Source of the DNA: Pseudomonas chlororaphis subsp. piscium
GTDB lineage: Bacteria > Pseudomonadota > Gammaproteobacteria > Pseudomonadales > Pseudomonadaceae
DNA: 64,000 nucleotides
Direction of reading: 5' to 3'
Assembly (NCBI RefSeq): GCF_003850345.1
Contig: NZ_CP027707.1
Coordinates: 5,332,001 to 5,396,000 of the forward strand
Positions 5,261-22,033 of the stretch are shown piece by piece. Below the pieces are notes generated by a model. That model saw only the letters and a list, made by a program, of their open reading frames with translations. It ran no database searches and had not been told where the DNA came from. The translations under genes and the position numbers were made by a program. Positions within the stretch are counted from its first letter, which is position 1. Every line of letters begins with the position of its first letter.

Positions 5261-6193
5261 CTAGCTGTTATCTGCTGCTTTGATCCGGTCGACAACCCGG
5301 GATGCCAGGTCATCAGGACGAAACTTGGCAAGGAAGTCATCGGCACCGACCTTCTTCACCATCGCCTGATTGAATACACCTGACAACGAAGTATGCAGGA
5401 TGATGTGCAGCTTTTGCATGCGTGGATCGTTGCGTATTTCGGCCGTGAGGGTGTAGCCATCCATCTCCGGCATCTCGATGTCGGAGATCATCATCAGAAA
5501 CTCTTCTTCAGGTTTCTTGCCCTCGTCGACCAACTTGCGCAGGTAGTCCAGCGCCTGTCGGCCGTCGTTCAGGGCCACCACTTCGACCCCCACGGTCTGC
5601 AGGCAACGCGTGACCTGCTTGCGCGCCACCGACGAGTCATCGACCGTCAGCACCCGCAGCGAAACGGCCTTGTGCTGAGTCTCGACATCCACCACGCCCA
5701 CCGAAATGGTCTCGGGCGTCGGCGCGACCTCGGCCAGCACCTTCTCGACGTCGATGATTTCCACCAACTGATTGTCGACCCGCGTCACCGCCGTCAGGTA
5801 GTGATCGCGCCCCGTCCCCTTGGGTGGCGGATGGATCTCCTCCCAGTTCATGTTGACGATGCGCTCGACCGAGCGCACCAGAAACCCCTGGGTCTTGGTG
5901 TTGTACTCAGTGATGATGACAAAGGGGTTGCTCAGATCCTGCAACCCGCCCGAACCGGTGGCCATCGCCAGGTCCAGGATCGGAATGGTCGCCCCTCGAA
6001 TATTCGCGACACCGCACACCACAGGACTGGATTTGGGCATCAACGTCAGTTTGGGGCATTGCAGCACCTCCCGAACCTTGAACACGTTGATCCCATAGAG
6101 CTGCTGCCCGTCGAGACGGAACAACAACAGCTCAAGGCGATTCTGCCCTACCAGTTGCGTGCGCTGGTTCACCGAATCCATTACACCAGCCAT
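5261..6193 (-). CDS. cheV: Chemotaxis coupling/response-regulator protein CheV
   Basis: CheV couples receptors to CheA and can be phosphorylated as a phosphate sink or adaptation switch. The 310-residue protein has an N-terminal CheW-like domain (ELLLFRLDGQQLYGINVFKV) and a C-terminal receiver with the acidic pair in LRVLTVDDSS, the phospho-acceptor in MMISDIEMPEMDG and the late KVGADDFLAKF lysine. I place the start at the ATG at 6193 (MAGVMDS), preceded by GGGGAG at good spacing; a TTG five codons upstream is less likely. Divergent from flgA with a 74-base intergenic region. I found no convincing FliA site for it. Confidence 0.94.
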   Translation of the reverse strand: MAGVMDSVNQRTQLVGQNRLELLLFRLDGQQLYGINVFKVREVLQCPKLTLMPKSSPVVCGVANIRGATIPILDLAMATGSGGLQDLSNPFVIITEYNTKTQGFLVRSVERIVNMNWEEIHPPPKGTGRDHYLTAVTRVDNQLVEIIDVEKVLAEVAPTPETISVGVVDVETQHKAVSLRVLTVDDSSVARKQVTRCLQTVGVEVVALNDGRQALDYLRKLVDEGKKPEEEFLMMISDIEMPEMDGYTLTAEIRNDPRMQKLHIILHTSLSGVFNQAMVKKVGADDFLAKFRPDDLASRVVDRIKAADNS

Positions 6194-6240
6194 GCCCAGA
6201 CTCCCCAAAGCTTAAGATCCGACGCGCGCTCATCGCTAAA

Positions 6241-6256
6241 CGGCACGGCGCTTGCT
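6241..6256 (+). promoter_or_regulatory. Sigma-54-like promoter before flgA
   Basis: CGGCACGGCGCTTGCT has GG and GC exactly ten bases apart and differs from TGGCAC-N5-TTGCW at one position. In P. aeruginosa flgA is, as I recall, an RpoN/FleQ class II gene. The predicted start of transcription (about 6267) almost coincides with the annotated ATG, which is odd. Confidence 0.5.
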
Positions 6257-6267
6257 TTTTAACTGTT

Positions 6268-7029
6268 ATGAACGCCAAAACGACATTTTCCCGACGCCTG
6301 ACATCAAACTACCGCAGATTGCTGTACGGGCTGTCGGCTTTGTTTTTTGTAAACCCTGGCCATCCTGCCGTTGCTGACTCGGTAACCCTGCCTGATCTAC
6401 TTATCGGCGTCACTCAGGGGTTTCTTGAATTCACCGTAGAAGACTATCTGGCAACCAGTCAAACGCCTGGACGCTACGAGATCCAGGTCAATCAGCTCGA
6501 CCCGCGGCTGCGCATGCCGCACTGCGACAAGGAATTGACAGCGACCCTGGAAAGCCCGGCGCAACCGCTGGGACGTGTGACCGTTCGTGTCCGCTGCGAC
6601 GGCGCCTCGCCCTGGACCGTGTTCGTGCCCGCCCAGGTCAAGCTGTTCCGCGAGGTGGTGACCACCACCCGGCCACTCAAACGCGCCGGCATCATCAGCC
6701 CCGAAGACGTGATGCTGCGCGAGCGCGATATCGGCCAGATCAACCAGGGCTATCTGACTTCGGTGGACCAGGCCATCGGGCAGAAGCTTGTCCGACCAAT
6801 GGTCGCCGACCAACTCGTCACCCTGGTTCACCTGGAACAGGCGGAAGTGGTGCGCAAGGGCGATCAGGTGGTGATCTCTGCCCGCAGCGGCACGCTGAAC
6901 GTGAAAATGCCCGGCGAAGCCTTGTCCAATGGCGGCATGAGCGAGCAGATACGGGTCAAGAACCTCAATTCACAACGGGTCATCAAAGCGCGGGTCACCG
7001 CGCCGGGACAGGTGGAAGTCGCGATGTAG
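6268..7029 (+). CDS. flgA: Flagellar P-ring assembly chaperone FlgA
   Basis: FlgA is a periplasmic chaperone that helps FlgI form the P ring. The 253-residue protein has a positively charged N-terminus, a hydrophobic stretch around residues 17-30 and a likely signal-peptidase site after AVA (residues 34-36). The SAF-like C-terminal half is recognisable from TTRPLKRAGIISPEDVMLRE and GQKLVRPMVADQLVTLVHLE, ending with VRVKNLNS-type residues and a short tail. Start at the ATG is conventional, but a sigma-54-like site ends only 12 bases before it, so either the mRNA is nearly leaderless or the true start is a few codons in. Confidence 0.93.
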   Translation: MNAKTTFSRRLTSNYRRLLYGLSALFFVNPGHPAVADSVTLPDLLIGVTQGFLEFTVEDYLATSQTPGRYEIQVNQLDPRLRMPHCDKELTATLESPAQPLGRVTVRVRCDGASPWTVFVPAQVKLFREVVTTTRPLKRAGIISPEDVMLRERDIGQINQGYLTSVDQAIGQKLVRPMVADQLVTLVHLEQAEVVRKGDQVVISARSGTLNVKMPGEALSNGGMSEQIRVKNLNSQRVIKARVTAPGQVEVAM

Positions 7030-7115
7030 ACGACTGGCGCTGTGCACTGTTGCCCCCTAAACTGTGGCCCATGCAGGGCAACAGCGGCGCGTGCGGGCTT
7101 ATCGATATTTGAGCC

Positions 7116-7142
7116 TAAAGTTTTCCGGGGTATTGCCGAAAA
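7116..7142 (+). promoter_or_regulatory. Sigma-28 (FliA) promoter of flgMN
   Basis: TAAAG, a 14-base spacer, and GCCGAAAA match the FliA consensus TAAAG-N15-GCCGATAA closely. It lies about 40-65 bases before the flgM ATG. FliA control of flgMN is established in Pseudomonas, so this is a reliable call. Confidence 0.85.
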
Positions 7143-7179
7143 CAAGTCAAGCGTCCAAATACCCAGAGGTTTTTTTACC

Positions 7180-7500
7180 ATGGTCATCGATTTCAGCCGT
7201 TTAAACAGCTCTCCCTCACTCACCGGCAGCACGCGCACCAGCGCCAGCAAGGAAACCGGCGACGCCGACAAGTCCGCGCCGCTGAACGCTCCAGCCGAAC
7301 AGGCCAGCACCAGCGGGGAGTCGGTACACCTCAGCAATGAGGCTCAACAGTTGCAGAAGATCACTGACAAGCTGCGCGACCAGCCTGCCGTCGACAACGC
7401 CCGCGTGGCCGAGTTGAAGCAAGCGATTGCCGATGGCAGCTATAAAGTCGACAGCAACCGTGTAGCCAGCAAACTGCTCAATTTCGAAGCCCAGCGCTAG
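7180..7500 (+). CDS. flgM: Anti-sigma-28 factor FlgM
   Basis: FlgM holds FliA (sigma-28) inactive until the hook is finished and FlgM is exported through it. The 106-residue protein starts MVIDFSRLN and has a disordered Ser/Thr/Ala-rich N-terminal half; the C-terminal sigma-binding helices include [20 protein letters not shown] and [12 protein letters not shown]. The ATG at 7180 has AGAGGT upstream. A FliA promoter precedes it, giving the feedback loop expected for this gene. flgN follows after 50 bases. Confidence 0.95.
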
Positions 7501-7550
7501 CCAATAAGGCCTGCGCCAGTTTTTTGGACGCTTAACACCCAAGGCCATAC

Positions 7551-8018
7551 ATGCACGACACTAATTTGCTGCAACTGATCACTGACGACTTTGCTCCAGC
7601 TCAACAATTGCTGGAATTGCTGGGCACAGAATCCCTCGCCCTGCACGGCCGCGACATGCCGCTGCTGGAAGATATTCTCGCGCAGAAGCAAGCCCTGATC
7701 ATTTTGCTCGAGCAGCATGGCCGCAAACGCAGCGAAATCCTCGCCAGCCTGAATCTTCCTGTCAGCCGCACCGGCCTGGAACAACTGGCCAGCCATTCTT
7801 CGATTGGCGACCAGTTACTGGCCCAGAGCGACGTGCTGACCCAGATGCTTGCCGATTGCCAGGCAGCGAACGAACTCAACGGTCGTTCGATCCAGGTTCA
7901 ACAGGCCACCACCGCCAATCAATTGAAAATCCTCACCGGTGGCGAGCCTCCAGCCCTCTATGATGCCCGCGGCTCAACCGCCAAGCTGGCCAAGCCTCGC
8001 CCGCTTAGCCAGGCTTGA
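7551..8018 (+). CDS. flgN: Flagellar export chaperone FlgN
   Basis: FlgN escorts the hook-filament junction proteins FlgK and FlgL to the export gate. The 155-residue, mostly helical protein has the FlgN features LLELLGTESLALHGRDMPLL and a later GRSIQVQQATTANQLKIL segment. It follows flgM in the same operon and should share the FliA promoter. Confidence 0.92.
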   Translation: MHDTNLLQLITDDFAPAQQLLELLGTESLALHGRDMPLLEDILAQKQALIILLEQHGRKRSEILASLNLPVSRTGLEQLASHSSIGDQLLAQSDVLTQMLADCQAANELNGRSIQVQQATTANQLKILTGGEPPALYDARGSTAKLAKPRPLSQA

Positions 8019-8113
8019 CCCCAGAGATGAGCGCGCCCTATCAAGTCGCGGAACATGCTGGCAAAATGCCGGCTCTTGCGTGTAGTCGTATTTTGTCTGG
8101 AGATTGATGAACC

Positions 8114-8860
8114 GTGTTCAATGCCGTAAACGCAGAAGATGCGCCGCAGCCACCCAAGGTGCTCACCACCCCCTTGGAAATCAACTCCACGCTGCGCTTG
8201 CTGCAAGACAGCCATGACCCGCTGATCATCACTTTCCACGAACGCAGCCAGCGCTTCCAAAGCTATCTGGTCGAGGTCGACCGCGACAGCAACATGATCG
8301 CCCTGGATGAAATGATCCCCCGCGACGGCGAACGCTTCATGCTCGCCGGCGAACCGTTTCGCGTCGAAGGCTTTCACGAGGGCGTGCGCATCGCCTGGGA
8401 AAGCAACGGCATCCCGACCATCGACGAATCCAATGGCGGGCGCTGCTACCGCGGCACCCTGCCGGACGAAGTGGTCTATCACCAGCGCCGCAATGCCTTT
8501 CGCGCCGCCCTGAAGCTGGCCCAACTGGTCAACATCGAACTGGGTGGTGAAAAACTCAAGGCGCCGATCGCCGGCAAACTGCTGGATATCTCCGCCACCG
8601 GTTGCAAGCTGCGCTTCGAGGGCGACATCTCCAGCCGCCTGCAACTGGGCCAGGTCTACGAGCGTTTTATCGCCGCCCTGCCCTTCGGCAGCATGACTGC
8701 GCCAGTGGAGCTGCGTTACCTGCACCACGAAGAGAAGATCGACACGACTTTCGCCGGCGTGCGCTTCCATAACATGAGCGGCCTGGTTCAACGCCAGGTC
8801 GAGCGCTTTGTCTACCAGCTGCAACGTGAAGCCCGGCGCTTCGACAAAGACGACCTCTGA
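8114..8860 (+). CDS. flgZ: PilZ-domain c-di-GMP flagellar brake FlgZ (YcgR family)
   Basis: YcgR/FlgZ binds c-di-GMP and lowers swimming speed by acting at the motor. The 248-residue protein has an N-terminal YcgR domain (about residues 20-115) and a C-terminal PilZ domain with both binding motifs: the arginines of QRRNAFR near residue 130 and [10 protein letters not shown] near residue 160. The GTG start at 8114 gives the family N-terminus ([17 protein letters not shown]); an ATG seven bases upstream is in another frame. It lies 95 bases downstream of flgN and ends at a shared terminator. Confidence 0.92.
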
Positions 8861-10369: not shown

Positions 10370-11713
10370 TTAAGCCTGGGCCGCTAAAACACGCCGCTCC
10401 CAGGGAGTTATTTCATCAAAGAAACTGGTCAACTCCATGGTCTTCGAAGCGAGGTAACCTTCGACGAACTCATTGCCAAACAATTCCTTGGCCAACTGGC
10501 TACGTTTCAGACGCTCGAGAGCGGCATGCAAGGTACAAGGCAAAGATAAACTGTCCGGCACGGCAAATTCACCCTGAATCGCCGGCGTCGGTTCCAACTC
10601 GTTTTCGATGCCGTGCAAACCGGCCGCCAGGCTCGCGGCGATCGCCAGATACGGGTTGGCGTCGGCGCCTGGCAAGCGGTTCTCGACCCGCCGCGCCACC
10701 GGCGAGCTGGCCGGAATGCGCAGACCCGCCGCCCGATTATCATGGGACCAGCAGGCGTTGTTCGGCGAGGCGTAAGGATGGCACAGGCGCTGGTAGGAGT
10801 TGACGTTCGGCGCGAACAGCGCAGTGAAATCCGCCATGCCCGCCTGCAGCCCGCCAATGAAGTGGCGGAACATCGCGGTCGGTTCTCCGGCCTCGTCGCT
10901 GAACACGTTACGTCCGCTGGCCGACTCGACCAGGCTCTGGTGAATATGCATCGAACTGCCTGGCGTGTGCGCCAGCGGCTTGGCCATGCATACCACGGTC
11001 AGGCCATGCTTGAGCGCCACTTCCTTGAGCAGGTGCTTGAACAGGAAAGTCTGGTCGGCCAACAACAGCGGATCGCCGTGCAGCAGATTGATCTCGAACT
11101 GGCTGACGCCCATTTCATGCATGAAGGTATCGCGCGGCAGGCCCAGTGCCGCCATGCAGGCATAGACCTCACTGAAGAACGGCCGCAAACCGTTGTTGGA
11201 GCTGATGCTGAACGCCGAATGCCCGTCTTCGCGACGACCGTCCAGGCCAATAGGTGGCTGGAAAGGCTGGGTCGGATCGGTATTGGGAGCAAATATGAAG
11301 AATTCCAGCTCGGTCGCCACCACCGGCGCCAGGCCGCGGGCGGCGTACCGCGCGATGACCTCTTTGAGCTGGCCGCGGGTGGAAAGGCGCGAGCTTTCAC
11401 CACTCAGCTCGTCCGCGTCGCAAATCGCCAGCGCCCGTGGCTGCGAACTCCAGGGCAGGCGATGAATCTGTTGCGGGTCGGCATTGAGCGCCAGGTCGCC
11501 GTCGTCACTACCGTAGAAACGCGCGGGGGGATAACCGCCCATGATGCATTGCAGCAGCACCCCGCGGGCCATCTGCAGACGCCGACCTTCGAGGAACCCC
11601 TCGGCGGTCATCACCTTGCCCCGTGGCACGCCGTTCAGATCCGGAGTGACACATTCAATCTCGTCAATGCCCGTCAATCGCTGCGCGAGTGAACTGCGGC
11701 CATCGGTTGTCAT
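10370..11713 (-). CDS. Glutamine synthetase family ligase (PuuA/PauA-like)
   Basis: The 447-residue protein has the catalytic core of type I glutamine synthetases: VVATELEFFIF and FEINLLHGD metal-binding segments, GSSMHIHQSL for ATP, and DNRAAGLRIPASSPVARRVE with NRLPGADANPYL near residues 330-365. It lacks the GlnA adenylylation loop sequence and looks like the gamma-glutamyl-polyamine synthetases of Pseudomonas, which ligate glutamate to putrescine or other amines. Substrate specificity is inferred, not shown. It may be cotranscribed with the MFS gene downstream; that transporter could move the amine, which is speculation. Confidence 0.85.
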   Translation of the reverse strand: MTTDGRSSLAQRLTGIDEIECVTPDLNGVPRGKVMTAEGFLEGRRLQMARGVLLQCIMGGYPPARFYGSDDGDLALNADPQQIHRLPWSSQPRALAICDADELSGESSRLSTRGQLKEVIARYAARGLAPVVATELEFFIFAPNTDPTQPFQPPIGLDGRREDGHSAFSISSNNGLRPFFSEVYACMAALGLPRDTFMHEMGVSQFEINLLHGDPLLLADQTFLFKHLLKEVALKHGLTVVCMAKPLAHTPGSSMHIHQSLVESASGRNVFSDEAGEPTAMFRHFIGGLQAGMADFTALFAPNVNSYQRLCHPYASPNNACWSHDNRAAGLRIPASSPVARRVENRLPGADANPYLAIAASLAAGLHGIENELEPTPAIQGEFAVPDSLSLPCTLHAALERLKRSQLAKELFGNEFVEGYLASKTMELTSFFDEITPWERRVLAAQA

Positions 11714-11784
11714 GACTCAATCCTTGTTGTTGTACGAGCCGAGAACGGCGACCCGTACAAAATAGGCTCCGGCTGTTCGGAATT

Positions 11785-11878
11785 TCAAGCAGCCTCGAAC
11801 AAAAAGCCCTCGGGATCGAACACACCGCCGAAATACGGCGCAGCCCCTACAAGGTCGACAACCGCTTCAAGGCGGATC
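11785..11878 (-). pseudogene. Possible C-terminal remnant of a VOC/glyoxalase-like gene
   Basis: Directly after the histidine kinase stop, a minus-strand reading frame encodes about 30 residues ending PYFGGVFDPEGFLFEAA and a stop. This resembles the last strand of vicinal-oxygen-chelate proteins, where DPDG/DPEG precedes a metal-binding Glu. No upstream part of such a gene is present. Too short for certainty; chance is possible. Confidence 0.25.
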
Positions 11879-12571
11879 TCAAGGCAGATAGAGACTGAAC
11901 ATGCCACCACCCAGAGGCCCGCCATTACGGATCTCGGTGCGCCCGCAGACACCGTTGCGCTGATGCAGCGCGGCAATGCGCCCGGCGAAGTACAACCCCA
12001 GGCCGGTGCTGCCGCTGCTGTGATTGATGCCTTGCACGTAGTCGGCCTGGTTATCGATCATTTGCTGCGGATACCCCTCGCCATCGTCGTTGATGGTCAG
12101 CACCGTCTGCCCGCCTTCATCGTGCACGCTGACCAGCAACGCATGGCGCGCATAACGAATGGCGTTGTTGATGCAGTTGGCCAGCACCGAGGCGATCAGC
12201 TCCCGATCGAAAAAACCCAGGGGGGTCAAAGGATCGACTTCATAGGTCGCGGCAATGCCACGACTGACGAACACGTCCTGATGGCTGACCAATTGCGCTT
12301 CGATGAAGTCATCCAGTTCGTGGTAGCCCGGCTGCACCGGCAACTGGTTGACCCCCAGCTTGTAGAGCCCCAGCAGTTGCACCAGCATGCCGTTGAGATG
12401 GGCGAACTCGAACTCCATCACGCCCTGCTCCGGCGTGCCCTGCTGCGCCTGCGGCAGTCTTGCCAGCCACTGGGCATGGGCCTGCATGAGCAGGGTCAGG
12501 GAGTTCTTCATGTCGTGCACGGTAGAGGCGATCACCGTGGAAAAGTCGAGAGCCTGTTCGTGGGTATTCAT
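11879..12571 (-). CDS. Sensor histidine kinase, soluble, paired with upstream RR-TPR
   Basis: The 230-residue protein has no membrane segment and no input domain: it begins almost at the dimerisation helix with H19 in ASTVHDMKNSLTLL, then the ATPase domain with N-box NCINNAIRYARHA, G1 NDDGEGYP and G2 SGSTGLGLYFA. The ATG at 12571 overlaps the TGA of the response regulator by ATGA, so the two are translationally coupled. It probably receives its signal from another protein. A longer in-frame start exists but would lie inside the upstream gene. Confidence 0.85.
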   Translation of the reverse strand: MNTHEQALDFSTVIASTVHDMKNSLTLLMQAHAQWLARLPQAQQGTPEQGVMEFEFAHLNGMLVQLLGLYKLGVNQLPVQPGYHELDDFIEAQLVSHQDVFVSRGIAATYEVDPLTPLGFFDRELIASVLANCINNAIRYARHALLVSVHDEGGQTVLTINDDGEGYPQQMIDNQADYVQGINHSSGSTGLGLYFAGRIAALHQRNGVCGRTEIRNGGPLGGGMFSLYLP

Positions 12572-14172
12572 TCGCCAAACGCCTTGCTTCGCAGCTTTTG
12601 ATAACGCGGATAACGCGCGTCGGTATCGGGCATCAGGCCGACCATTTTCAGGCAGGTCCGGCACTCTTCCAGCAGCGCCGCATCCTGGGTGATGTCGGTG
12701 CCGTGCAATAGCGACTGCGCCATGTTCAGGGCAATACTGATGTTCTTCGGTTGCATGGCCAGGGCCCGACGGAACAGATCCCGTGCCTCGCCCAGCGCGC
12801 CAGCCTTGTAACTGCGCACGCCCTGACGGTTCATGTCTGCCGCGGCATTGGCGGAGTTGAGGATCGCCGGGTCATCGGTGAGCTTGGAGATACCCTCCAT
12901 CACCTTCGGGTCGTCGCCGTAGATTTCCGCGCAGTTTTTCAGCATCGATGCGCCGGCATCGGCCTGCCCCAGCATCTGCAGTTGCTTGGCCACCAGCAGC
13001 GCCGCTTCCGGGCTCATGAACTGCTCCATCCCGTCCAGGCGCAACATCGCCTGCTCGGTGAGCTTTTCCGCCGTTTCAGCATCGTTGAGCAACAGGCTGG
13101 TGGCCTTCATCAGGCGCGCGCGAATCTGCAACCCTGGATCGCTGGGGTTTTCCTTGGCCACCGCACTCAGGGTGCTGTTGATTTCCAGGCGCGTGCGGGT
13201 ATCCAGGCCCCTCTCGCTGCCCTTGCTGATCAACGCATGCGCCAGGCCAAGGTTGCTTTCCGGGTCCTTGAAACGCGATTGCGCGCCCTGGGATACCGCC
13301 TGGCGATAGGCCCTGGAGGCAGTCTCGAAGTCTTCGTTGGTCATCGCCAGCTTGCCCAGCAGCGCTTGCCGGCGCACAGCCAGCGGCGACAGGCGCACGG
13401 CCTCCTCCAGCACACTCTGGGCGCGCCTGGAGTCACCCTCGGCGAGCAGCACCTCGGCCATGCCATCGTAGAGCGCCGGCATCATCGGAAAAGCCTTCAA
13501 GGCCTTTTCATAGATGGCCTTGGCCTGGGTCACCTGGCCACGCTTGAACAGCAGGCGCCCCAGGCCGACATAGGCCCACGGCAACGGGCGATCCGCCAGA
13601 ATGCTCTCGTACAACCGCTCCAACGCTTCGTTCTGGTTCAGGTCACGCAGGGCATCGGCCCGGTAGCGCAGGCACAACGGCGAATAGCGCGGGTCCTGCT
13701 TGCACAGGGCAATGCAGGCATTGAGCACCTCAAGCGGCTTGCCGCGATCGAGCGCCTGCAGGATTGGCTTGAGCAGCGACTTGCGCTGCTGCAGCCGCTC
13801 CAACCGCTGAGCCAGGCTGGAGCGGTTGAAAGGCTTGGTCAGATAGGCGTCCGGCTCGTGCTCGAGGGCGCTGAGCACCATCGACTGGCTGGTCTCGGCG
13901 GTGACCATCAGGAATACGCTTTCATGGCTGATCAGCTTGTCGGTCATCAGGTCTTCGAGCACCTGCTGCCCGTTCTTCTTGCCGTCGCCCAGGTGGTAAT
14001 CCTGCAGGATGAAGTCATAGCGCTTTTGCGCGCACATGCGCAGCGCCTGCTCGCCTGTATCGGCAGTGTCTACGTCCTTGACGCCCAGCTCACGCAGCAT
14101 GGACCGGACAGAACTGCGGAAATCCGAGAAATCATCGACGATCAAAAAGCTTTTTTGGTGGTACGCCAGCAT
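12568..14172 (-). CDS. Response regulator with C-terminal TPR array
   Basis: The 534-residue protein has a receiver domain (residues 8-130) with D13/D14, phospho-acceptor D58 in FILQDYHLGDG, the VTAET threonine and K in YLTKPFN. The rest is a series of tetratricopeptide repeats (about residues 140-525; for example the LGRLLFKRGQVTQAKAIYEK unit and AVRLSPLAVRRQALLGKLAM). There is no DNA-binding or enzymatic output, so it should act through protein-protein contacts. Coupled to the histidine kinase gene downstream. A FliA-type promoter about 200 bases upstream suggests it is expressed with late flagellar genes. Confidence 0.85.
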   Translation of the reverse strand: MLAYHQKSFLIVDDFSDFRSSVRSMLRELGVKDVDTADTGEQALRMCAQKRYDFILQDYHLGDGKKNGQQVLEDLMTDKLISHESVFLMVTAETSQSMVLSALEHEPDAYLTKPFNRSSLAQRLERLQQRKSLLKPILQALDRGKPLEVLNACIALCKQDPRYSPLCLRYRADALRDLNQNEALERLYESILADRPLPWAYVGLGRLLFKRGQVTQAKAIYEKALKAFPMMPALYDGMAEVLLAEGDSRRAQSVLEEAVRLSPLAVRRQALLGKLAMTNEDFETASRAYRQAVSQGAQSRFKDPESNLGLAHALISKGSERGLDTRTRLEINSTLSAVAKENPSDPGLQIRARLMKATSLLLNDAETAEKLTEQAMLRLDGMEQFMSPEAALLVAKQLQMLGQADAGASMLKNCAEIYGDDPKVMEGISKLTDDPAILNSANAAADMNRQGVRSYKAGALGEARDLFRRALAMQPKNISIALNMAQSLLHGTDITQDAALLEECRTCLKMVGLMPDTDARYPRYQKLRSKAFGE

Positions 14173-14373
14173 CGAAGATTCCAGACCCGTAAAAAAGATG
14201 AAGCCCGCGGCAACAGCAGGACAGGCTCAAGGTCGTCAGCCTTGCTGCACCCGGACAACGATAATGGCCAAAGGCCATCAATGCATTCTACATCAACCCG
14301 CAATGGTGCCCGTCTGCTCGCCGGGCGCCCGGCCCATGGCCCAGCCATTTGACCTGCAACAACATCCATGGGG

Positions 14374-14401
14374 TTATCGGCCGATTCTGGCGTTCCCTTA
14401 T
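14374..14401 (-). promoter_or_regulatory. Sigma-28 (FliA) promoter of the RR-TPR/HK operon
   Basis: Read on the minus strand, ATAAG, a 15-base spacer and a perfect GCCGATAA match TAAAG-N15-GCCGATAA with one mismatch in the -35. The predicted start is about 195 bases before the response regulator ATG. The 14173-14558 gap otherwise shows no gene. Confidence 0.65.
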
Positions 14402-14558
14402 AGATAGTTGGCAAAAGCCTTCGATATCCTTGCTCGCGCCGCCCACCAGCTCCGGTTGCGGCAAACTCCATCGGGAATATCAGCCGGGCGGCATCAACTT
14501 TAGGCCAGCCACGCCGATACCTTGCAGACAGACAGCAACAGTCAAAAACGAGCGCAAC

Positions 14559-15491
14559 ATGCAAACCTGTATCCAAAACCTCATCGACCAGGGCGCCCAC
14601 ATCTTTGGCGAGATCCTGGACGCTGACCGCACGCAGGCGCTGTACCGCGAAATGATCGCCGCACGGGCCTTCGGGGCCGGGCTGTTCATGGACGAGGCTG
14701 AGTACCTGGCCCAGGAAAACCACCTCAACGCCAACCCGAACAAGACCTTCAACTTTCTCAATGCTTTCGAGCCGCAGTTGCAGTTCATCGAACAGGACCC
14801 GCGCCTCACCGCGGTCCTCGATGAAGTGCTCGGCGCCGACTATGAGGTGGTGATCAAGAAAGCGGTGTGCGGGGTACCGGATTCGTGGCTACCGGACTGG
14901 GTACGGGAAAAGATCCGCGATGTGAATGTGGCGAACCTGGGGCCGTACATCAAAAAGCCCTTTCGCGACATCACCTACTTCCGCGGGATCGACTTTCACC
15001 AGGACATCATCGACTGGCCCCAAGGCCGGGTGGAACTCGACCCTTCGACCTTTCTGACCCTCTATGTGTACCTGCATGAGGTCACCGAAAACGACTCGCC
15101 GCTGCACCTGATGCCCGGCACTCACCGTTTTGGCGCCACGTTGTTCCCTCATCAGTTGGAACATCAGGAGCACGACCAATGGACCTACGCCGACGATCAG
15201 GGGCAGCAGATGGCCTGCCAGGATTACCGGCTGACGGGCGGGCCGGGTTACGTCGGGCTCTGGCATAACTGCACCTTGCACGGTACGCGGCCGGTGGCCA
15301 ATGAGTCGGAACAGTTCCGCCTGTCGCTTCGCTATCTGCTGGGCAAGTCCCGGAGCAACACCGGCAAGACCGCGATTGATACCATCAACGCCGCGATCCA
15401 GGGCGAGCTGCAACCGATAAGGACCCGACGCGACCTGAACGCCAAGGGTATCGCCCAGATCAAGGGCAACATCATCAATAACAATGGCTAG
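14559..15491 (+). CDS. Phytanoyl-CoA dioxygenase (PhyH) family Fe(II)/2-oxoglutarate enzyme
   Basis: The 310-residue protein has the facial triad of 2-oxoglutarate dioxygenases: HxD in IDFHQDIIDWP near residue 149, the distal histidine in LWHNCTLHGTRP, and the 2-oxoglutarate arginine in FRLSLRYLLG. Such enzymes hydroxylate or otherwise oxidise small molecules using O2. It is the first gene of the sugar cassette, 77 bases before the glycosyltransferase, so its substrate may be a sugar nucleotide or an attached acyl group; that is inference from context. The ATG at 14559 is chosen because the upstream in-frame segment is not protein-like. Confidence 0.8.
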   Translation: MQTCIQNLIDQGAHIFGEILDADRTQALYREMIAARAFGAGLFMDEAEYLAQENHLNANPNKTFNFLNAFEPQLQFIEQDPRLTAVLDEVLGADYEVVIKKAVCGVPDSWLPDWVREKIRDVNVANLGPYIKKPFRDITYFRGIDFHQDIIDWPQGRVELDPSTFLTLYVYLHEVTENDSPLHLMPGTHRFGATLFPHQLEHQEHDQWTYADDQGQQMACQDYRLTGGPGYVGLWHNCTLHGTRPVANESEQFRLSLRYLLGKSRSNTGKTAIDTINAAIQGELQPIRTRRDLNAKGIAQIKGNIINNNG

Positions 15492-15568
15492 CGTCACCGC
15501 CTTTACCGAGCGGGCGAACCGCTCGGGTGACGATCTACCACCGGCAGCACCAGCAAGACGAGGTCAAT

Positions 15569-17137
15569 GTGTCGACAGGGTTTGGACAAAAAGCGCGGGT
15601 GCTGATATTCGGTACCGGCGCCGGTGGGGTCAACTTCTACAAGTACAACCGCCGCCGCTACCGGGTGATCGGCTTCGTCGATAACAACCAGCAGAAGCAG
15701 GGCCAGCGCCTGTTCGGCAAACTGATCCACGCGCCTCAACAATTGAGTTCGCTGGCTTTCGACAAAATCATCATCGCCAGTGATTACTACCGCGAGATCC
15801 ATCCGCAGCTCACTGAGAAGCTGGCCATCAACGAGCAAAAAGTCGAAGTCTTCCATGGCGCGCAGATCAGCTCGCAACTCCCATGGTTCCAGCGTATTGG
15901 CAAACGCCTCGAGCAACTGGGCTATGAACGGCTGTGCAGAAAGCCGGGATTGATCAGCGACCTGCTGTATCGACTGTTTTTTCGACGCCAGGATACCCGG
16001 CGCCTGGCCTTGCGCTGGCTGGATGAAAGCGACGAGCACAAGGTCCATGTCTTTCGCCCGAGCCAACCGGGCACCAGCCAACCTCCACGGTTCATCCATC
16101 AATCGACACCAGCGATCACCCTGGAGTTACCCGAGATCGCCCTGTATCACTTCCGGCAGGGGCAAGTCTGTTCGGTGTCGCGTTCGGTGATTCTGCCCGG
16201 CGGGCAATTGGTGCTGGAGCGAGTGCCCACGGCGAAATCCCTGCAGGCCGACTATAGTGCTGCGCACCTGCTCTACCACGGCCAGCGCCTGGCCCTGGTC
16301 AGGACCGGCACACCTGTAGAGCTGGAAAAAGGCCTGCTGATCAGCGGCTGCAACGAGCAGAACTATTACCACTGGACGGTAGAAGTCTTGTCGCAACTGC
16401 AATTCGTGGCCGAACTGCCGCCGCAATATGCGGACTATCCACTGCTGATCTCCAAGAGCAGCCAGAACATTCCTTCGATCAAGGCCCTGATCGAGGCGAT
16501 CGGCGTTGAACGCCCGCTGGTGCTCCTGGAAAACATCACCAGCTACCAGGTGGCCGACCTGCTGCTGATCAGTGCCCCCAACAATATGATCCCGAACTTC
16601 AAAGGCCCGGCACAGAACAGTGCCAGCAGCGGTTTCGTCCGCCCGGAGTCGATCAATTTCCTGCGGGAAAAGGCGCTGCATCTGGCCCGTGACATTCCCA
16701 TCAGCGAACTCCCCAAACGAGTATTCCTGGCCCGCAAAGGCTTTCTCCGGCACTACAACCAGGCCGAGATCCTCAAGCTGCTGGAACCCTATGGGTTTAC
16801 CTGCGTGTACATGGAGGAACAAGACATCAACCATCAGGTGGCGATCATGGCCAATGCCGAAGTCATAGTCGGCCCCACCGGCGCGGCCTGGACCAATCTG
16901 ATTTTCGCCTCGAAAAACACCCGCGCACTGTGCTGGATGGCCGAGGAATACGCAGAGCTGTCGTGCTTTTCCAACCTAGCGGCGGTCGTCGGCGTGGAAA
17001 TGGACTACATCGCTTACCGGGTAGGCTCGACCGACTCCCGAGAACTGTATTACCGGAATTATCGGGTCGACGCCAAGAGCGTTGAAAACTGGCTGCAACA
17101 GCATTTGTCGAAACGGCTCGAAGAGGAGACGCGATGA
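15569..17137 (+). CDS. Two-domain glycosyltransferase family 61 protein
   Basis: The 522-residue protein has an N-terminal nucleotide-binding fold (RVLIFGTGAGGVNFYKY near residue 9, then VIGFVDNNQQKQG) like the first domain of PglD-type sugar enzymes, and a C-terminal GT61 (DUF563) region with CNEQNYYHWTVEVLSQLQF near residue 265 and VGPTGAAWTNLIFA near residue 435. GT61 enzymes transfer sugars to polysaccharide or protein. The GTG at 15569 is preferred over one at 15527 because GAGG lies seven bases upstream. It overlaps qdtA by ATGA, so transferase and ketoisomerase are coupled. No membrane segment; cytoplasmic. Confidence 0.78.
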   Translation: MSTGFGQKARVLIFGTGAGGVNFYKYNRRRYRVIGFVDNNQQKQGQRLFGKLIHAPQQLSSLAFDKIIIASDYYREIHPQLTEKLAINEQKVEVFHGAQISSQLPWFQRIGKRLEQLGYERLCRKPGLISDLLYRLFFRRQDTRRLALRWLDESDEHKVHVFRPSQPGTSQPPRFIHQSTPAITLELPEIALYHFRQGQVCSVSRSVILPGGQLVLERVPTAKSLQADYSAAHLLYHGQRLALVRTGTPVELEKGLLISGCNEQNYYHWTVEVLSQLQFVAELPPQYADYPLLISKSSQNIPSIKALIEAIGVERPLVLLENITSYQVADLLLISAPNNMIPNFKGPAQNSASSGFVRPESINFLREKALHLARDIPISELPKRVFLARKGFLRHYNQAEILKLLEPYGFTCVYMEEQDINHQVAIMANAEVIVGPTGAAWTNLIFASKNTRALCWMAEEYAELSCFSNLAAVVGVEMDYIAYRVGSTDSRELYYRNYRVDAKSVENWLQQHLSKRLEEETR

Positions 17138-17532
17138 AGATTCACATTCTGCCGCTGCAGACCCACGGCGATGACCGCGGCTCGCTGATTGCCCTGGAAG
17201 AAGGGAAGAATATCCCCTTCCCGGTGAAGCGCGTGTACTACATGTTCAATACCGGTGAAGGGGTTCGCCGCGGCTACCATGCCCACAAGACCCTCAAGCA
17301 GGTCGCAATCGCCGTACGCGGTTCGTGCCGTTTTCTGCTGGATGACGGCCGGGAAAAGATCGACATCACCCTGGACAACCCTTGCCAGGGCCTGCTGATC
17401 GAATCCTTTATCTGGCGTGAGATGTATGACTTCTCTCCAGACTGTGTGCTGATGGTTCTGGCCGATCAACTCTACGAAGAAGGCGATTACGTTCGAGACT
17501 ATGCCCAGTTCATGGATATGCTCGGACAATGA
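17134..17532 (+). CDS. qdtA: dTDP-4-dehydro-6-deoxyglucose 3,4-ketoisomerase (QdtA/FdtA family)
   Basis: This cupin enzyme moves the keto group of dTDP-4-keto-6-deoxyglucose from C4 to C3. The 132-residue protein has the family signatures [20 protein letters not shown], the catalytic pair H49 and H51 in [10 protein letters not shown], and [13 protein letters not shown]. The gluco (QdtA, Qui3N) versus galacto (FdtA, Fuc3N) outcome depends on a few residues I cannot settle; I favour QdtA because of the QdtF-like formyltransferase nearby. Overlaps both neighbours by ATGA. Confidence 0.82.
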
Positions 17533-18650
17533 CTCAGATGATGAATATTCCGTTTCTGGATTTGAAAGGCATCAATCACGAATATGCCGATCAGCTCAAA
17601 GCCGCTTGCAGCCGCGTGATCGACTCCGGCTGGTACCTGATGGGGCGCGAGCTTGAGCGATTCGAGGCCGCCTTCGCCGAGTACTGCGGCAGCCAGCATG
17701 CCATCGGCGTCGCCAATGGCCTGGATGCCCTGACCCTGATCCTGCGTGCCTGGAAAGAGCAAGGCAAGCTTCAGGCCGGCGATGAAGTGATAGTGCAGAG
17801 CAACACCTTTATCGCCACCATCTCGGCCATTCTGGAAAACGATCTGGCGCCGATCCTGGTGGATGTGGACCCTGCGACCCACAACCTGGAAATCGAGGCC
17901 GTCAAACGGGCCATCTCGGAAAAAACCCGAGTGATACTGCCGGTGCATCTTTATGGGCAACTGTCGCCGATGCCGCAGATCATGGCCTTGGCCCACAAGC
18001 ATGGCCTGCTGGTACTCGAAGATGCCGCCCAGGCCCATGGCGCCGAGCTGGCCGGGCGCAAGGCCGGCAACTGGGGCGATGCCGCGGCGTTCAGCTTCTA
18101 CCCCGGGAAGAACCTCGGTGCCCTGGGCGACGGCGGAGCCATCACCACCAACGACGCCGAGCTGGTAACCCTGGTCCGGGCGCTGGGCAACTACGGCTCG
18201 CGCATCAAGTACCAGCACGATTATCAGGGGGTGAACAGCCGCCTCGATGAAATCCAGGCCGCGATGCTGGGGGTGAAACTGGCGCACCTGGACAGTGATA
18301 CTGCCCGTCGACGCAGCGTCGCCCGCTACTACAGCGAACACATCCGGCACCCGGGTATCACCCTGCCCTCGGTCACAACAGCGAGCGCCCATGTCTGGCA
18401 CCTGTATGTCATTAGCTGCCCATGGCGCGATCAACTGAAGGCGCATCTGGCCGAGCGTGGCATCCAATGCCTGGTTCACTATCCACTGGCGATCACCGAG
18501 CAGCGGGCCTACAGCGACCTGGCCAAGACCTCCAAGGCATCTCGGGCACCGCTGCATGACTCGATCCTGTCATTGCCGATCTACCCGACATTGGGCGAGG
18601 AACAACAGCAATACATTGTCACTGCTATCAACCAGTTCACAGCCCACTGA
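17529..18650 (+). CDS. qdtB: dTDP-3-amino-3,6-dideoxyhexose transaminase (QdtB/FdtB, DegT family)
   Basis: PLP-dependent sugar aminotransferase that uses glutamate to aminate C3 of the ketosugar made by QdtA. The 373-residue protein has the DegT pattern: [13 protein letters not shown] at the start, [21 protein letters not shown], the PLP lysine in [18 protein letters not shown] near residue 195, and the [12 protein letters not shown] segment. Start ATG overlaps the qdtA stop, giving a coupled GT61-qdtA-qdtB unit. Convergent with qdtF, 19 bases apart. Confidence 0.85.
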
Positions 18651-18669
18651 TGCGCCTGTTGCGGGGTGC

Positions 18670-19848
18670 CTAGAAAGCACCTCGCAACTGAGCGAACTGC
18701 TCATCGCTCACATAGTCGGCGAGCGCCCGACCGGAATAGTCGGCAGCCTCAAGCCTCGCGCCCTTGCGCAGCAACAACGGAAAGGTTCTACGGCAACGCC
18801 CGGCCAGGAAAGCATCCTTGGCATACATCAAGGGTGTCGTGCCCTTATTGTTGGTCCGCTCCGGGTCGGCACCTTGCTGCAACAGCCAGTCAACCACCTC
18901 ATAGGCGCCCGCATAACTGGCGACGATCAGCGGCGTCCAGCCTTGCTGGTTGGCATCGTTGTAACCGGCAATATTGGCCTGCAGTGCCACCACCGCCTCC
19001 AAATCGCCCCGTTCACAAGCCTCGAGCATCTCCGGCAATCGATCAAAATTCAGCCGGATGTCGTAATCGATGGTGCAGAGCTCGACATAATCCTCGGTTG
19101 CGTTGATCAGGGTCCCGGCCTTGAATTGTGAACGCCCAGGCAGAATCGTCGCCGAGACCACCGGTTTTCCGTCCCAGTGCAAGAACTGATATTCACGAAA
19201 GGCGAACGCCCTGATCTTGTTGCGTAGCGCCCAGGCCGTCGACAGAGGATCGATTTTCAACGCCCCATAGTCGATGGCGTCCTTTGAGAAGTAGCTGGAC
19301 CCCACCGCACTCTGCGGCTGCGCCCTGACGTCACCATCGACCAACCTGGCAAACCACTGCTCCAGCAACTGGCCGGCATGCTGGTTAAAGGCGAAATAGA
19401 GATCGCGACAGGTCCACCAGGACGGGATCGAGAACACCTGTTGCGCGACGATGTCCCCGGTGTCGATACCCCGGTCGATGAAATGCAAGGTCACACCCGC
19501 CTCGGCCCTGGACTCCAGCAACGGCCAGACCGAGGTAAACATGCCCTTGTATTCCGGCAGCTTCGAGAAATGAATGTTGAACACGCGGCTGATGGAGAAG
19601 CGCTCAGGCACGACGATCCGGTCGAACTCCAGGGAAATGAACGCGACAGACGCTACTTCGTAAGCCGTCTCCAGGCTGATCTCACGCACGCCATACTTTT
19701 GCGCGGCCGCCCGCAACGAACGCTGCCAACCATCGACACCCGTATCGTTACGGTTGCAGACCACGGCAATTTCGTTAGGCGAAAACTGTCGCAGAGCCCG
19801 TTCCAGGCCAAACACCGAAATATTGTTTTTTCCAGCAATGACAATCAT
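18670..19848 (-). CDS. qdtF: dTDP-Qui3N N-formyltransferase with ankyrin tail (QdtF-like)
   Basis: Uses N10-formyl-tetrahydrofolate to formylate the 3-amino group of the sugar nucleotide. The 392-residue protein has the formyltransferase core with N91 and H93 in FNIHFSKLPEYKG and D129 in GIDTGDIV, then about 80 C-terminal residues of ankyrin repeats (GWTPLIVASYAGAYEVVDWL and GTTPLMYAKDAFLAG). An ankyrin-tailed N-formyltransferase is the described architecture of QdtF from Providencia alcalifaciens. The ATG at 19848 (MIVIAGKNN) is preferred to one 12 codons upstream because it begins at the first core strand. It is on the opposite strand to qdtA/qdtB and close to a tRNA-Arg. Confidence 0.82.
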   Translation of the reverse strand: MIVIAGKNNISVFGLERALRQFSPNEIAVVCNRNDTGVDGWQRSLRAAAQKYGVREISLETAYEVASVAFISLEFDRIVVPERFSISRVFNIHFSKLPEYKGMFTSVWPLLESRAEAGVTLHFIDRGIDTGDIVAQQVFSIPSWWTCRDLYFAFNQHAGQLLEQWFARLVDGDVRAQPQSAVGSSYFSKDAIDYGALKIDPLSTAWALRNKIRAFAFREYQFLHWDGKPVVSATILPGRSQFKAGTLINATEDYVELCTIDYDIRLNFDRLPEMLEACERGDLEAVVALQANIAGYNDANQQGWTPLIVASYAGAYEVVDWLLQQGADPERTNNKGTTPLMYAKDAFLAGRCRRTFPLLLRKGARLEAADYSGRALADYVSDEQFAQLRGAF

Positions 19849-19945
19849 GGGTGACTCCACAGCATCGAGAACTGCGTCAACCAAACGTAGCCGTACTGCG
19901 AAATAAGGACGAAAACCACGTTTGGACTGAAAGCCCGGAAGTAGA

Positions 19946-20022
19946 TGGTGTCCCAGGGCAGGTTCGAACTGCCAACCTTCCCCTTAGGAGGGGGATGCTC
20001 TATCCAATTGAGCTACTGGGAC
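19946..20022 (-). tRNA. tRNA-Arg (anticodon CCU)
   Basis: Complete cloverleaf on the minus strand: acceptor GTCCCAG pairs with CTGGGAC, anticodon loop CTCCTAA gives CCU, T arm GGCAG-TTCGAAC-CTGCC, discriminator A and an encoded CCA. Its 3' end faces the sugar cassette, the usual orientation for island insertion. Confidence 0.93.
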
Positions 20023-20269
20023 AAATTGACTGCCGCGTGTGCTGCCGCGGCGCAAAGGACGGCGTGCATGTTAACGGCCAGCCCTGATTTTGTCATGTTG
20101 TGAGTAGGGCTTTTTAACCGGTGGCCACCTCTGGTCATCAGGCAACTTGCCAGAGTCGCCGTGCAAATTGCATCACTGCAAAAAGCCATCATTGCAGAAT
20201 GCAATCCTCCGCCTTCTAAAGCCCCTATCAAATCATTGTTTTTAAAGGGTTTATTAGAGGTTAGACTCT

Positions 20270-20285
20270 TGGCATGAGCGCTGCT
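20270..20285 (+). promoter_or_regulatory. Sigma-54-like promoter before small membrane-protein genes
   Basis: TGGCATGAGCGCTGCT has GG and GC exactly ten bases apart, with two deviations from TGGCAC-N5-TTGCW. It ends 34 bases before the first small gene. The stretch 20023-20269 is AT-richer and holds nothing else I recognise. Confidence 0.5.
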
Positions 20286-20319
20286 TCATCTCTATGAAAG
20301 AACAATGGAGATCAAGCCC

Positions 20320-20562
20320 ATGAACAGCGCCCTTCTTCTATCGAATGCCATTGCCATCGCCGTACTGGTGGTCTTCCACTTTCAGCCTGATGGCAGCGCT
20401 GATCAGAGCACCCAGTACAGGACCCACTACGCGCAACACCAGGCCCCGCAATTGGCTGTGATGAGCAGCGCATTGGAGAATCCTGGCTTGGCGCGGGTCG
20501 CCGATGACCCGGAAGCCGTTGTTCTACCTGCCAATCCAAGACCCGAAAGCTGGGTATTTTGA
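20320..20562 (+). CDS. Small secreted or single-pass membrane protein, unknown
   Basis: An 80-residue product begins MNSALLLSNAIAIAVLVVFH, one hydrophobic helix with no clear signal-peptidase site, followed by a Gln/His/Ser-rich polar tail. The ATG at 20320 has GGAG nine bases upstream; another ATG five codons earlier is possible. A sigma-54-like promoter sits just upstream and a second small gene follows after 25 bases. I do not recognise the family. Confidence 0.55.
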   Translation: MNSALLLSNAIAIAVLVVFHFQPDGSADQSTQYRTHYAQHQAPQLAVMSSALENPGLARVADDPEAVVLPANPRPESWVF

Positions 20563-20587
20563 ATACGACCCTATCAGGAGCCTGTTA

Positions 20588-20767
20588 ATGTCCCGACTTG
20601 CCAAAGGCCTTCTCATCCTGGCAGTACTCAGTGCCACACTGGGTTGCTTCACCACTGAAAATACCCTGGGTGATGCGCCCTTGATTGCTTGTGGTGTTTT
20701 TTCCGGCTTGTTCCTGCTGGCGCTGGCGTTGGGACGCAAAATCAAGTTCGACCCAGTGCTGCGCTGA
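20588..20767 (+). CDS. Small two-helix membrane protein, unknown
   Basis: A 59-residue protein with two hydrophobic helices (about residues 5-22 and 32-49), separated by a short polar loop, ends in a basic tail (GRKIKFDPVLR). The ATG has AGGAG seven bases upstream. A cysteine at residue 20 does not fit a proper lipobox. Its 3' end overlaps phnN on the other strand by 26 bases. Confidence 0.55.
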   Translation: MSRLAKGLLILAVLSATLGCFTTENTLGDAPLIACGVFSGLFLLALALGRKIKFDPVLR

Positions 20768-21326
20768 TCCCCTGATCTCTCAACAGCTTCAGAAAACGCT
20801 CAAGCGTCACGGACAGCTCGCTCGAGTTGTCCAGAAAAAACACGGACTCTCCCAGCACAGGTCCGTCCTCAGCGGAAAAAAGAGCGCTTCTCTTGAGTCT
20901 CGCCTCGATCTGCATCGCACTTTCGCGACCGCGGTTCATCAGTCTTTGCCGCAGCACGTCGATGTCCACCGTCAACAGAATCGCCAAAAGCTCCGGATAA
21001 CGTTGGCGAGCCTGATCCAGGTACACCCTGGAGCCATTGACCAGGACATGACGCCCACTGGTCAGCCATTCGTCGATCTGCACGGGAATTCCGTAGGCTA
21101 GGCCATTAGCCCGCCAGCACAAAGCAAAGGCGCCCTGCCGCTCCAGGCGCTCGAACTCATCAGCACTTACCCCATGGGCCTCTTCCCCCACGGATTCCGC
21201 GGAACGGGTGATCACCCGCCGCACCACATCACAACCGAGTTGTGCCAGAGGCCGGCGCGCAGCCTCTATCAGGCTGTCCTTGCCCGACCCGGATGGCCCT
21301 ATCAAATAAATCAGTCTGCCTGACAT
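20742..21326 (-). CDS. phnN: Ribose 1,5-bisphosphate phosphokinase PhnN
   Basis: PhnN phosphorylates ribose 1,5-bisphosphate to PRPP, the last step of phosphonate breakdown through C-P lyase. The 194-residue kinase has a Walker A GPSGSGKDS at residues 10-18, RRVITRSAE in the guanylate-kinase-like substrate region, and a late LMNRGRES arginine segment. It stands alone here, with no phn lyase genes in the window. In P. aeruginosa the phn operon lies beside amrZ, as phnN does here, so this may be what remains of that operon. Confidence 0.85.
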   Translation of the reverse strand: MSGRLIYLIGPSGSGKDSLIEAARRPLAQLGCDVVRRVITRSAESVGEEAHGVSADEFERLERQGAFALCWRANGLAYGIPVQIDEWLTSGRHVLVNGSRVYLDQARQRYPELLAILLTVDIDVLRQRLMNRGRESAMQIEARLKRSALFSAEDGPVLGESVFFLDNSSELSVTLERFLKLLRDQGISAALGRT

Positions 21327-21361
21327 TCAGAGACTCCATGGTGCTCGCAGCCTAGTAAATC

Positions 21362-21372
21362 GGCAATTTGCC
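21362..21372. promoter_or_regulatory. Possible AmrZ operator (palindrome)
   Basis: GGCAATTTGCC is a perfect 5-1-5 palindrome in the phnN-amrZ intergenic region. It resembles the GGC-rich AmrZ motif I remember from P. aeruginosa and P. fluorescens studies, and AmrZ represses itself. It lies 335 bases from the amrZ ATG, so it could instead act on phnN. The rest of 21327-21706 shows no gene I would support. Confidence 0.3.
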
Positions 21373-21706
21373 ACTATTCTGTATAGAGTAGGGAACGATG
21401 ATCGGATCCGCATAGATGCCCACCTGGCGACACTCAAACGCCGCCTATCAGGCAACAGGACGCTGGCAGATAGGCGGACCAGGCAATCTTTTCAAACCAG
21501 TCCGCATTTCTGATAATTGGTGCTGGCATAACGCCTTTACCCAGTTCAATATTTGTCACAGAATTGACGCCAAGGATATGGCTATTTTGAGGCATGATGC
21601 GGGCCTCTTAACAATTCAGGTTGAACATTTGGCAGCAACGCTTGTCCTAACTGACATCCCGCGGCCAATTCCGAGAACCGCTCCCCTGAACTAACCGGTT
21701 AAATAT

Positions 21707-22033
21707 ATGCGCCCATTGAAACAGGCAATTTATTCCAGCCGTACGGCTGACAAGTTCGTCGTACGTCTACCCGACGGGATGCGTGAACGCATTGCCGAGG
21801 TGGCTCGCAATCATCACCGCAGCATGAACTCCGAAATCATCGCGCGCCTGGAACAGAGTCTTATTCAGGAAGGCGCCTTGGGTGAAGAGTTGAGCATGCG
21901 CCTGGACAGCCCAGAGCTCTCCTTGCATGAACGCGAACTGCTTCAACGTTTCCGTCAACTTTCCCACCGCCAGCAGAACGCTCTCGTTTCGCTGATCGCC
22001 CATGACGCCGAAATGGCCGCAGACGCTTCCTGA
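21707..22033 (+). CDS. amrZ: Ribbon-helix-helix regulator AmrZ (AlgZ)
   Basis: AmrZ is a global regulator of alginate, motility and c-di-GMP genes in Pseudomonas. The 108-residue protein matches the known sequence closely: [25 protein letters not shown] as the DNA-binding beta strand, the helices around [17 protein letters not shown], and the C-terminal tetramerisation part [18 protein letters not shown]. In P. fluorescens AmrZ represses fleQ and flagella, which links it to the motility genes at the left of the window. I saw no convincing AlgT promoter. A terminator follows. Confidence 0.95.

Follow-up and report, generated by a model that had tools for sequence, protein, structure and literature searches.

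The 64,000-nucleotide stretch of DNA analyzed here (G000:C1:5332001-5396000, hereafter the window) belongs to the 7.07 Mb, single-contig genome of a Pseudomonas chlororaphis subsp. piscium strain, and carries at positions 14559-19848 a module of five genes, all of which are intact frames. Four of them lie on the + strand and encode a PhyH-type Fe(II)/2-oxoglutarate (2OG) dioxygenase (14559..15491, 310 amino acids (aa); PF05721, 31.4 bits, cut-off 22), a GT61 glycosyltransferase (15569..17137, 522 aa; PF04577, 68.2 bits, gathering cut-off 27), a sugar 3,4-ketoisomerase of the FdtA/QdtA family (17134..17532, 132 aa; PF05523, 161.8 bits, gathering cut-off 23) and a DegT-family sugar aminotransferase of the QdtB/FdtB type (17529..18650, 373 aa; PF01041, 365.2 bits, cut-off 19.8). 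Overlaps of 4 bp join the GT61 gene, whose start codon was picked from an alignment, to the ketoisomerase gene and the latter to the aminotransferase gene. Convergent to these four is the gene of an ankyrin-tailed N-formyltransferase of the QdtF/FdtF type (18670..19848, - strand, 392 aa; PF00551, 45.5 bits, cut-off 26.1; ankyrin repeats also present), beyond which lies a tRNA-Arg(CCT) gene. This five-enzyme set had been described in a first-pass annotation of the window and was confirmed by Pfam matches over cut-off; the catalytic motifs and the ankyrin tail were likewise found in the sequences (ketoisomerase H49/H51, formyltransferase NIHFSKLP and GIDTGDI, ankyrin Trp). That annotation left the dioxygenase and the transferase at the margin, yet no other component of the module is as informative as the dioxygenase. 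Sugar pathways of this kind are already known, and what is new here is the pathway's link with a PhyH dioxygenase and with pseudaminic acid (Pse).

The PhyH dioxygenase and the GT61 glycosyltransferase

Residues H147, D149 and H241 of PhyH, together with R254 and R258, are conserved in all 26 aligned relatives, an alignment that leaves out four of 30 available sequences. The predicted structure has a pLDDT of 91.5 and matches 2OG dioxygenases, including GriE, EctD, EvdO2 and PrhA, with identities of 13-21% among the matches listed. By alignment and model the protein is a PhyH dioxygenase, with an HxD...H iron site, a 2OG-binding Arg and a double-stranded beta-helix fold. A profile search of the PDB with PhyH gave weak matches only (best E 0.011), and no relative of known function was found by sequence. 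The proposed substrate, Pse or a derivative, is suggested by the genomic association described below. None of the papers searched contained 'pseudaminic' and 'phytanoyl' together, and an oxygenase tailoring Pse was not found in these searches.

The relatives of the GT61 protein share the domain pair PF22674 and PF04577, the N-terminal domain being nucleotide-binding-like. The nearest listed protein is from Pseudomonas chlororaphis (97%) and belongs to a cluster of 129 member sequences; a plasmid search returned 17 records, none with 80% query coverage. The protein is proposed to transfer 3-amino-3,6-dideoxyglucose (Qui3N) or its N-formylated form (Qui3NFo). Three GT61 genes, 55-65% identical to that of the window, occur in a single module at L051:7038-14158.

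Distribution of the module

In a survey of 298 genomes of the genus, evenly drawn from a larger group, PhyH was found in four genomes and GT61 in the identical four. The ketoisomerase family was present in 69, with identity above 80% in those four only and at most 60% in the others. A scan of contigs yielded 29 PhyH loci, comprising 13 of Pseudomonas type (identity 72-95%; 11 of the records are titled Pseudomonas and two only gamma proteobacterium) and 16 others. GT61 and the ketoisomerase lie within 10 kb of PhyH in 12 of the 13 Pseudomonas-type loci, L052 being the only one without the module; the aminotransferase adjoins the ketoisomerase in ten, and the ankyrin-tailed formyltransferase is present in five. 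The module of P. chlororaphis 14D6 (L049) is more distant from that of the window.

Pairwise distances among PhyH, GT61, ketoisomerase and aminotransferase are correlated (rho 0.38-0.72 over 11-13 loci including the window), and no pair was equaled in more than 8 of 2000 permutations; species kinship may explain part of these correlations. The corresponding correlations for the formyltransferase, from six loci, are weaker, with 79, 170, 96 and 24 of 2000 permutations reaching the observed values. Taken together, co-occurrence and distances indicate that PhyH, GT61, ketoisomerase and aminotransferase form the core of the module and that formylation is optional. The genome sets point the same way: the ankyrin-tailed formyltransferase occurs in four of the 298 genomes, three of which overlap the PhyH set (G180 in, G071 out), and because the two sets differ the formyltransferase appears to be an optional part.

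Association with pseudaminic acid genes

In locus L053 the gene order is pseB-C-F-G-I-H, PhyH, GT61, ketoisomerase, aminotransferase, KAS III, a PF01973 gene that we take to be Maf, and fliC, without the formyltransferase. Every gene of the pseB-C-F-G-I-H run scored over its NCBIfam cut-off. The order in L054, from a related genome, matches that of L053 as judged by similarity, and the formyltransferase is likewise missing (KAS III at L053/L054:14329-15255; flagellin at L053:17143-17994). In L058, PseH directly follows the aminotransferase. Outside the Pseudomonas type, none of the 16 PhyH loci matched GT61 or the ketoisomerase within the available DNA, some contigs being short, and nine contain at least two Pse-type genes, or ten when L066 (PseH-like plus a weak PseC) is counted. 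PhyH of Nostoc (L068) is flanked by PseG and PseH, PseC and PseI lying further out on the PseG and PseH sides, respectively, and that of a Cellvibrionaceae locus (L060) adjoins a flagellin gene in divergent orientation. The latter region (L060:7918-14647) also carries a sulfotransferase-like gene and a LicD-matching protein whose N-terminal part starts like that of GT61; in an Oleiphilaceae locus (L065:10001-10908) the PhyH match falls in two overlapping pieces, perhaps through a frameshift.

PseI scored over cut-off in 27 of the 31 genomes searched, which correspond to 26 of 30 distinct genomes since L049 is the same genome as G071. It was present in all 14 Pseudomonas-type PhyH genomes and in 12 of the 16 others, the remaining four giving three lower-scoring matches and one no match. 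Its background in the genus is 111 of 298 genomes; all four PhyH genomes of that sample possess it, a result with a hypergeometric chance of about 0.02. All 14 Pseudomonas-type genomes also have PseH over cut-off, and in 12 of them roughly 8 kb or less separates PseI from a flagellin gene. The window genome has a complete Pse set (PseB, C, F, G, I and H, with PseH at 5.979 Mb).

These associations lead us to favor, without regarding it as established and at somewhat less than even probability, the reading that the locus is an accessory module decorating the Pse glycan of flagellin, in which PhyH would tailor the glycan and GT61, supplied with dTDP-Qui3NFo, would extend it. RmlA and RmlB, encoded elsewhere, would provide dTDP-4-keto-6-deoxyglucose, which the ketoisomerase, aminotransferase and formyltransferase would convert to dTDP-Qui3N and then to dTDP-Qui3NFo. 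PhyH would oxidize Pse itself, one of its precursors or a conjugate of it, in the simplest form by hydroxylation, and GT61 would move Qui3N(Fo) to the Pse-flagellin glycan while flagellin is still in the cytoplasm, ahead of its export. What was observed are the gene identities, the motifs, the linkage in genomes and the full Pse set of the window genome; the stereochemistry of the sugar, the substrate of PhyH, the donor and acceptor of GT61 and the choice of flagellin as target are inferred from them. A bolder version, which we put forward tentatively as a possibility, is that PhyH represents an unrecognized family of nonulosonic-acid oxygenases, which would hydroxylate Pse to an undescribed nonulosonic acid and whose members occur in Caulobacterales, Nostoc, Pseudomonas and further Gammaproteobacteria; in Pseudomonas the new hydroxyl would be the point at which GT61 attaches Qui3NFo, making the module one device for extending flagellin glycans. 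If it is true that the PhyH family acts on Pse, an oxidized form of this sugar has so far escaped notice and can now be traced in genomes by this marker.

Several observations weigh against a role in Pse-flagellin decoration. Six of the 16 non-Pseudomonas PhyH loci (L060, L063 and L073-L076) show at most one Pse-type match, with none in L063, L074, L075 and L076 and one PseH-like gene in L073, and PseI is below cut-off or missing in four of the 16 corresponding genomes. The count of 14 out of 14 for PseI ignores shared ancestry. PseI and fliC are 384 kb apart in G071/L049 and lie on separate contigs in L050. The module stands beside fliC in only two of the 13 loci, both from related genomes, and the surroundings of some other modules point to a different acceptor, as considered next.

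Acceptor of the transferred sugar

The same enzymes and the same sugar could serve a GT61 whose acceptor is the lipopolysaccharide (LPS) O-antigen or another surface polysaccharide that itself contains Pse. The modules of L057 and L059 adjoin rpsA, a gene that we take as a border of the O-antigen locus in Pseudomonas, and this position suggests LPS; the separate rmlA/rmlB locus of the window genome (L018) also has rpsA. Both Qui3NFo and the galacto-configured 3-formamido-3,6-dideoxygalactose (Fuc3NFo) are known as O-antigen sugars. Moreover, phosphoramidate-type genes follow the module in five of the 13 loci, and phosphoramidate groups are a capsule feature in Campylobacter. With fliC proximity confined to two related genomes, the rpsA and phosphoramidate neighbors imply that at least some strains, and perhaps all, may use a surface polysaccharide as acceptor. 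On the other side stand the position of the L053/L054 module between pse genes and fliC, the fact that 12 of 14 genomes have Pse genes close to fliC, and the PhyH of L060 next to a flagellin gene. On balance we regard a polysaccharide acceptor as the less likely, and retain flagellin as the preferred target.

The phosphoramidate-like gene runs lie after PhyH at L051:15712-20927, L055:12604-19255, L056:14847-20923, L057:11439-18069 and L059:11437-18068. They comprise APS-kinase-like, gamma-glutamyl-CDP-amidate-hydrolase-like, PEP-utiliser/PPDK-like and nucleotidyltransferase-like genes, a set unexpected in Pseudomonas which presumably resembles the Campylobacter phosphoramidate pathway; the hydrolase-like gene matched NF045546 with 83 bits, below the cut-off of 250. 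A second formyltransferase of 244 aa, lacking the ankyrin tail, accompanies these genes (L029:9428-10162, with counterparts in L051, L055 and L057). The rpsA gene, for ribosomal protein S1, was recognized by its S1 RNA-binding domains at L029:14008-15690.

The first-pass annotation had named flagellin as a possible acceptor on the ground that the locus is next to flagellar genes. This argument is rejected, since the nearby genes belong to the flagellar core and flagellin is encoded elsewhere. The neighbors (flgE, flgD, two rod genes, cheR, a cheV-like CheW/receiver gene, flgA, flgM, flgN and a ycgR-like gene, at 1192-8860) are 5.7 kb from the module, with an MFS (major facilitator superfamily) transporter gene, a glutamine-synthetase-like gene and a kinase/regulator pair in between, whereas the flagellin gene at about 1.809 Mb, with its pse genes, is 3.5 Mb away. 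Flagellin itself stays plausible as the acceptor, from the position of the module within the flagellin islands of L053 and L054 and from the tie to Pse. The flagellin island of the window genome, at 1.79-1.81 Mb (L016:3649-13815 and L017:69-9770), contains genes for a 1190-aa glycosyltransferase, C-/O-methyltransferase-like proteins and a nucleotidyltransferase, the pse genes, KAS III (L017:6103-7029) and a PF01973 gene before fliC (L017:8952-9770), and may give rise to a second branch of the glycan.

Sugar product of the pathway

The check for rmlA and rmlB proposed in the first-pass annotation located both genes outside the window. The dTDP-glucose dehydratase (rmlB) scored over cut-off at two genome positions, 5153265 and 359755, and rmlA (L018:5411-6310, TIGR01207 over cut-off) adjoins the former, so the precursor can be made.

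Among solved structures, the ketoisomerase obtained its top score with FdtA (2pa7, 144.5 bits), compared with 103-104 bits for QdtA, and a product of the galacto series, dTDP-Fuc3NFo, has to be weighed against dTDP-Qui3NFo. The motif RRGYHAHK carries the pair H49 and H51, equivalent to the positions mutated in 2pae, 2pak and 2pam according to the structure titles. The QdtA entry 4zu7 is titled as the double mutant Y17R/R97H, and its sequence departs from the wild-type chain at exactly those two positions; changes at both reportedly alter product stereochemistry. At these switch positions QdtA has Tyr/Arg and FdtA 2pa7 has Arg/His, and the window enzyme has Arg/Arg. The same Arg/Arg pair is present in HCAN_0198 of Helicobacter canadensis, whose product we take to be Qui3NFo, and in 5tpu, titled WlaRB TDP-quinovose 3,4-ketoisomerase, from Campylobacter jejuni; the name WlaRB for 5tpu is also given in Table 1 of PMC9095892. 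Where QdtA of T. thermosaccharolyticum has Tyr17 the window enzyme has Arg, as does WlaRB, a TDP-quinovose enzyme, and the Tyr is therefore dispensable for gluco function. Arg97 lies in a WREM motif common to the window enzyme, wild-type QdtA, WlaRB and HCAN_0198. The FdtA-type Arg/His pair, defined by a single characterized enzyme (2pa7), is absent from the window protein, and Arg/Arg was found in all 13 module ketoisomerases examined and in 117 of 120 homologues (the best 120 of 4933 matches).

The best PDB match of the aminotransferase is 7n63 (364 bits), QdtB 3frk scores 321 bits, and these two and 5u1z are all within the top five distinct PDB proteins, which places the enzyme with the 3-aminosugar transaminases. 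The formyltransferase, with its motifs NIHFSKLP and GIDTGDI, has as best solved structures QdtF 4xcz (282.6 bits) and Formyltransferase 5uij (279.9 bits), presumably FdtF of S. enterica O60. Its ankyrin Trp is kept in a full-length alignment (GWTPLIV in the window, against GWSPIII and GASPIII; Trp is changed to Ala in 4xd1). The tail is common to QdtF and 5uij and cannot separate Qui3N from Fuc3N; in this respect the earlier argument from the ankyrin tail fails, and dTDP-Qui3NFo nevertheless stands as the best reading of the pathway.

We prefer dTDP-Qui3NFo over the Fuc3N form with moderate confidence, the switch residues Arg/Arg, which match WlaRB, being given more weight than the top score of FdtA; identity with FdtA by best score was set aside on these residues. 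The Fuc3N alternative, which also draws on an FdtA-like Arg at the first switch position and on a formyltransferase compatible with both sugars, appears unlikely in view of the second switch residue, Arg and not His in all 13 modules examined, although this residue is not decisive. The question could be tested on this natural Arg/Arg enzyme.

Substrate of the dioxygenase

The company of PhyH, the ketoisomerase and GT61 in 12 of 13 Pseudomonas-type loci, together with their co-varying distances, would also be expected if PhyH acted on the Qui3N sugar or its dTDP form, with another substrate in the Pse operons found elsewhere. Against this, the 16 non-Pseudomonas PhyH loci, some of them on short contigs, have Pse-type genes in nine cases and matches to the ketoisomerase or GT61 in none, and the PhyH active-site residues are identical throughout. 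We consider a Qui3N substrate improbable, and Pse or a derivative remains the proposed one.

Genomic site of the module

The module occupies a site bordered on the left by a response regulator gene with TPR repeats (12568..14172, - strand), which is context and not part of the module, and on the right by the tRNA-Arg(CCT) gene (19946..20022, - strand; L011:2774-2850). In strain NFIX28 (L048) the module is found at the same site, with the same tRNA and arrangement and 90-98% identity. A CheB/CheR-kinase fusion gene takes this spot between the tRNA and the same regulator in the relative G005 (window 14172-20022 versus L042:4329-9243), and the site is thus variable. A search for a mobile-element border gave no convincing direct repetition of the end of the tRNA gene, no integrase is present among the annotated genes at 10370-22033, and G+C content shows no clear step across the site. 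The histidine-kinase-like and receiver-TPR genes adjoining the module (11879-14172) are core neighbors in relatives (11 of 23 genomes with the regulator matching at E <= 1e-100).

That the module is a silent or stranded island without a function today is very improbable: rarity in the genus (4 of 298), the variable site next to a tRNA and a sigma-70 consensus promoter scan of the locus giving no sites (1.9 expected from shuffles) would suit it, and the intactness of all five frames, catalytic residues included, the conserved arrangement in NFIX28 and the large cluster of nearest GT61 relatives speak against it.

Comparison with known systems

QdtA/QdtB/QdtF, FdtA/FdtB/FdtF, WlaRA/WlaRB/WlaRD of C. 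jejuni and HCAN_0198 of H. canadensis share with the module the families of ketoisomerase, aminotransferase and ankyrin-tailed formyltransferase. In contrast to the Qdt, Fdt and WlaR pathways, PhyH and GT61 travel along here and the formyltransferase, present in 5 of 13 loci, is an optional component. The PseB-C-H-G-I-F and Maf pathway is represented by the full pse set of the window genome and by pse genes around PhyH in several taxa; to our knowledge, the Pse pathway as described has no oxygenase step. PhyH shares its predicted fold and its catalytic residues with GriE, EctD, EvdO2 and PrhA of the PhyH superfamily, at low identity. The nearest analogy to PhyH would be KdoO, the Kdo (3-deoxy-D-manno-oct-2-ulosonic acid) 3-hydroxylase, an iron/2OG oxygenase that hydroxylates a 3-deoxy-ulosonic acid within a surface glycan; it is not among the best 50 structure matches of PhyH, which says nothing against kinship.

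The glycans of flagellin influence how cells move, how they are recognized by the immune system and how phages bind; Pse is a common linking sugar, and the module offers a simple test case for the extension of Pse-flagellin glycans in P. chlororaphis. For such extension, a study of Aeromonas piscicola AH-3 reports that the first sugar beyond flagellin-linked Pse is added by Fgi-1, and that some Aeromonas flagellin glycosylation islands sit apart from the flagellar structural genes (PMC7874193). As in the present loci, accessory glycosyltransferase genes are linked to pse genes in the Fgi-1 island; unlike the module, the island belongs to an account whose available part makes no mention of a ketoisomerase, phytanoyl or dioxygenase, and its transferase is of another family (PMC7874193). 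By analogy, Fgi-1 would be the closest precedent found for extending Pse on flagellin in the manner proposed here.

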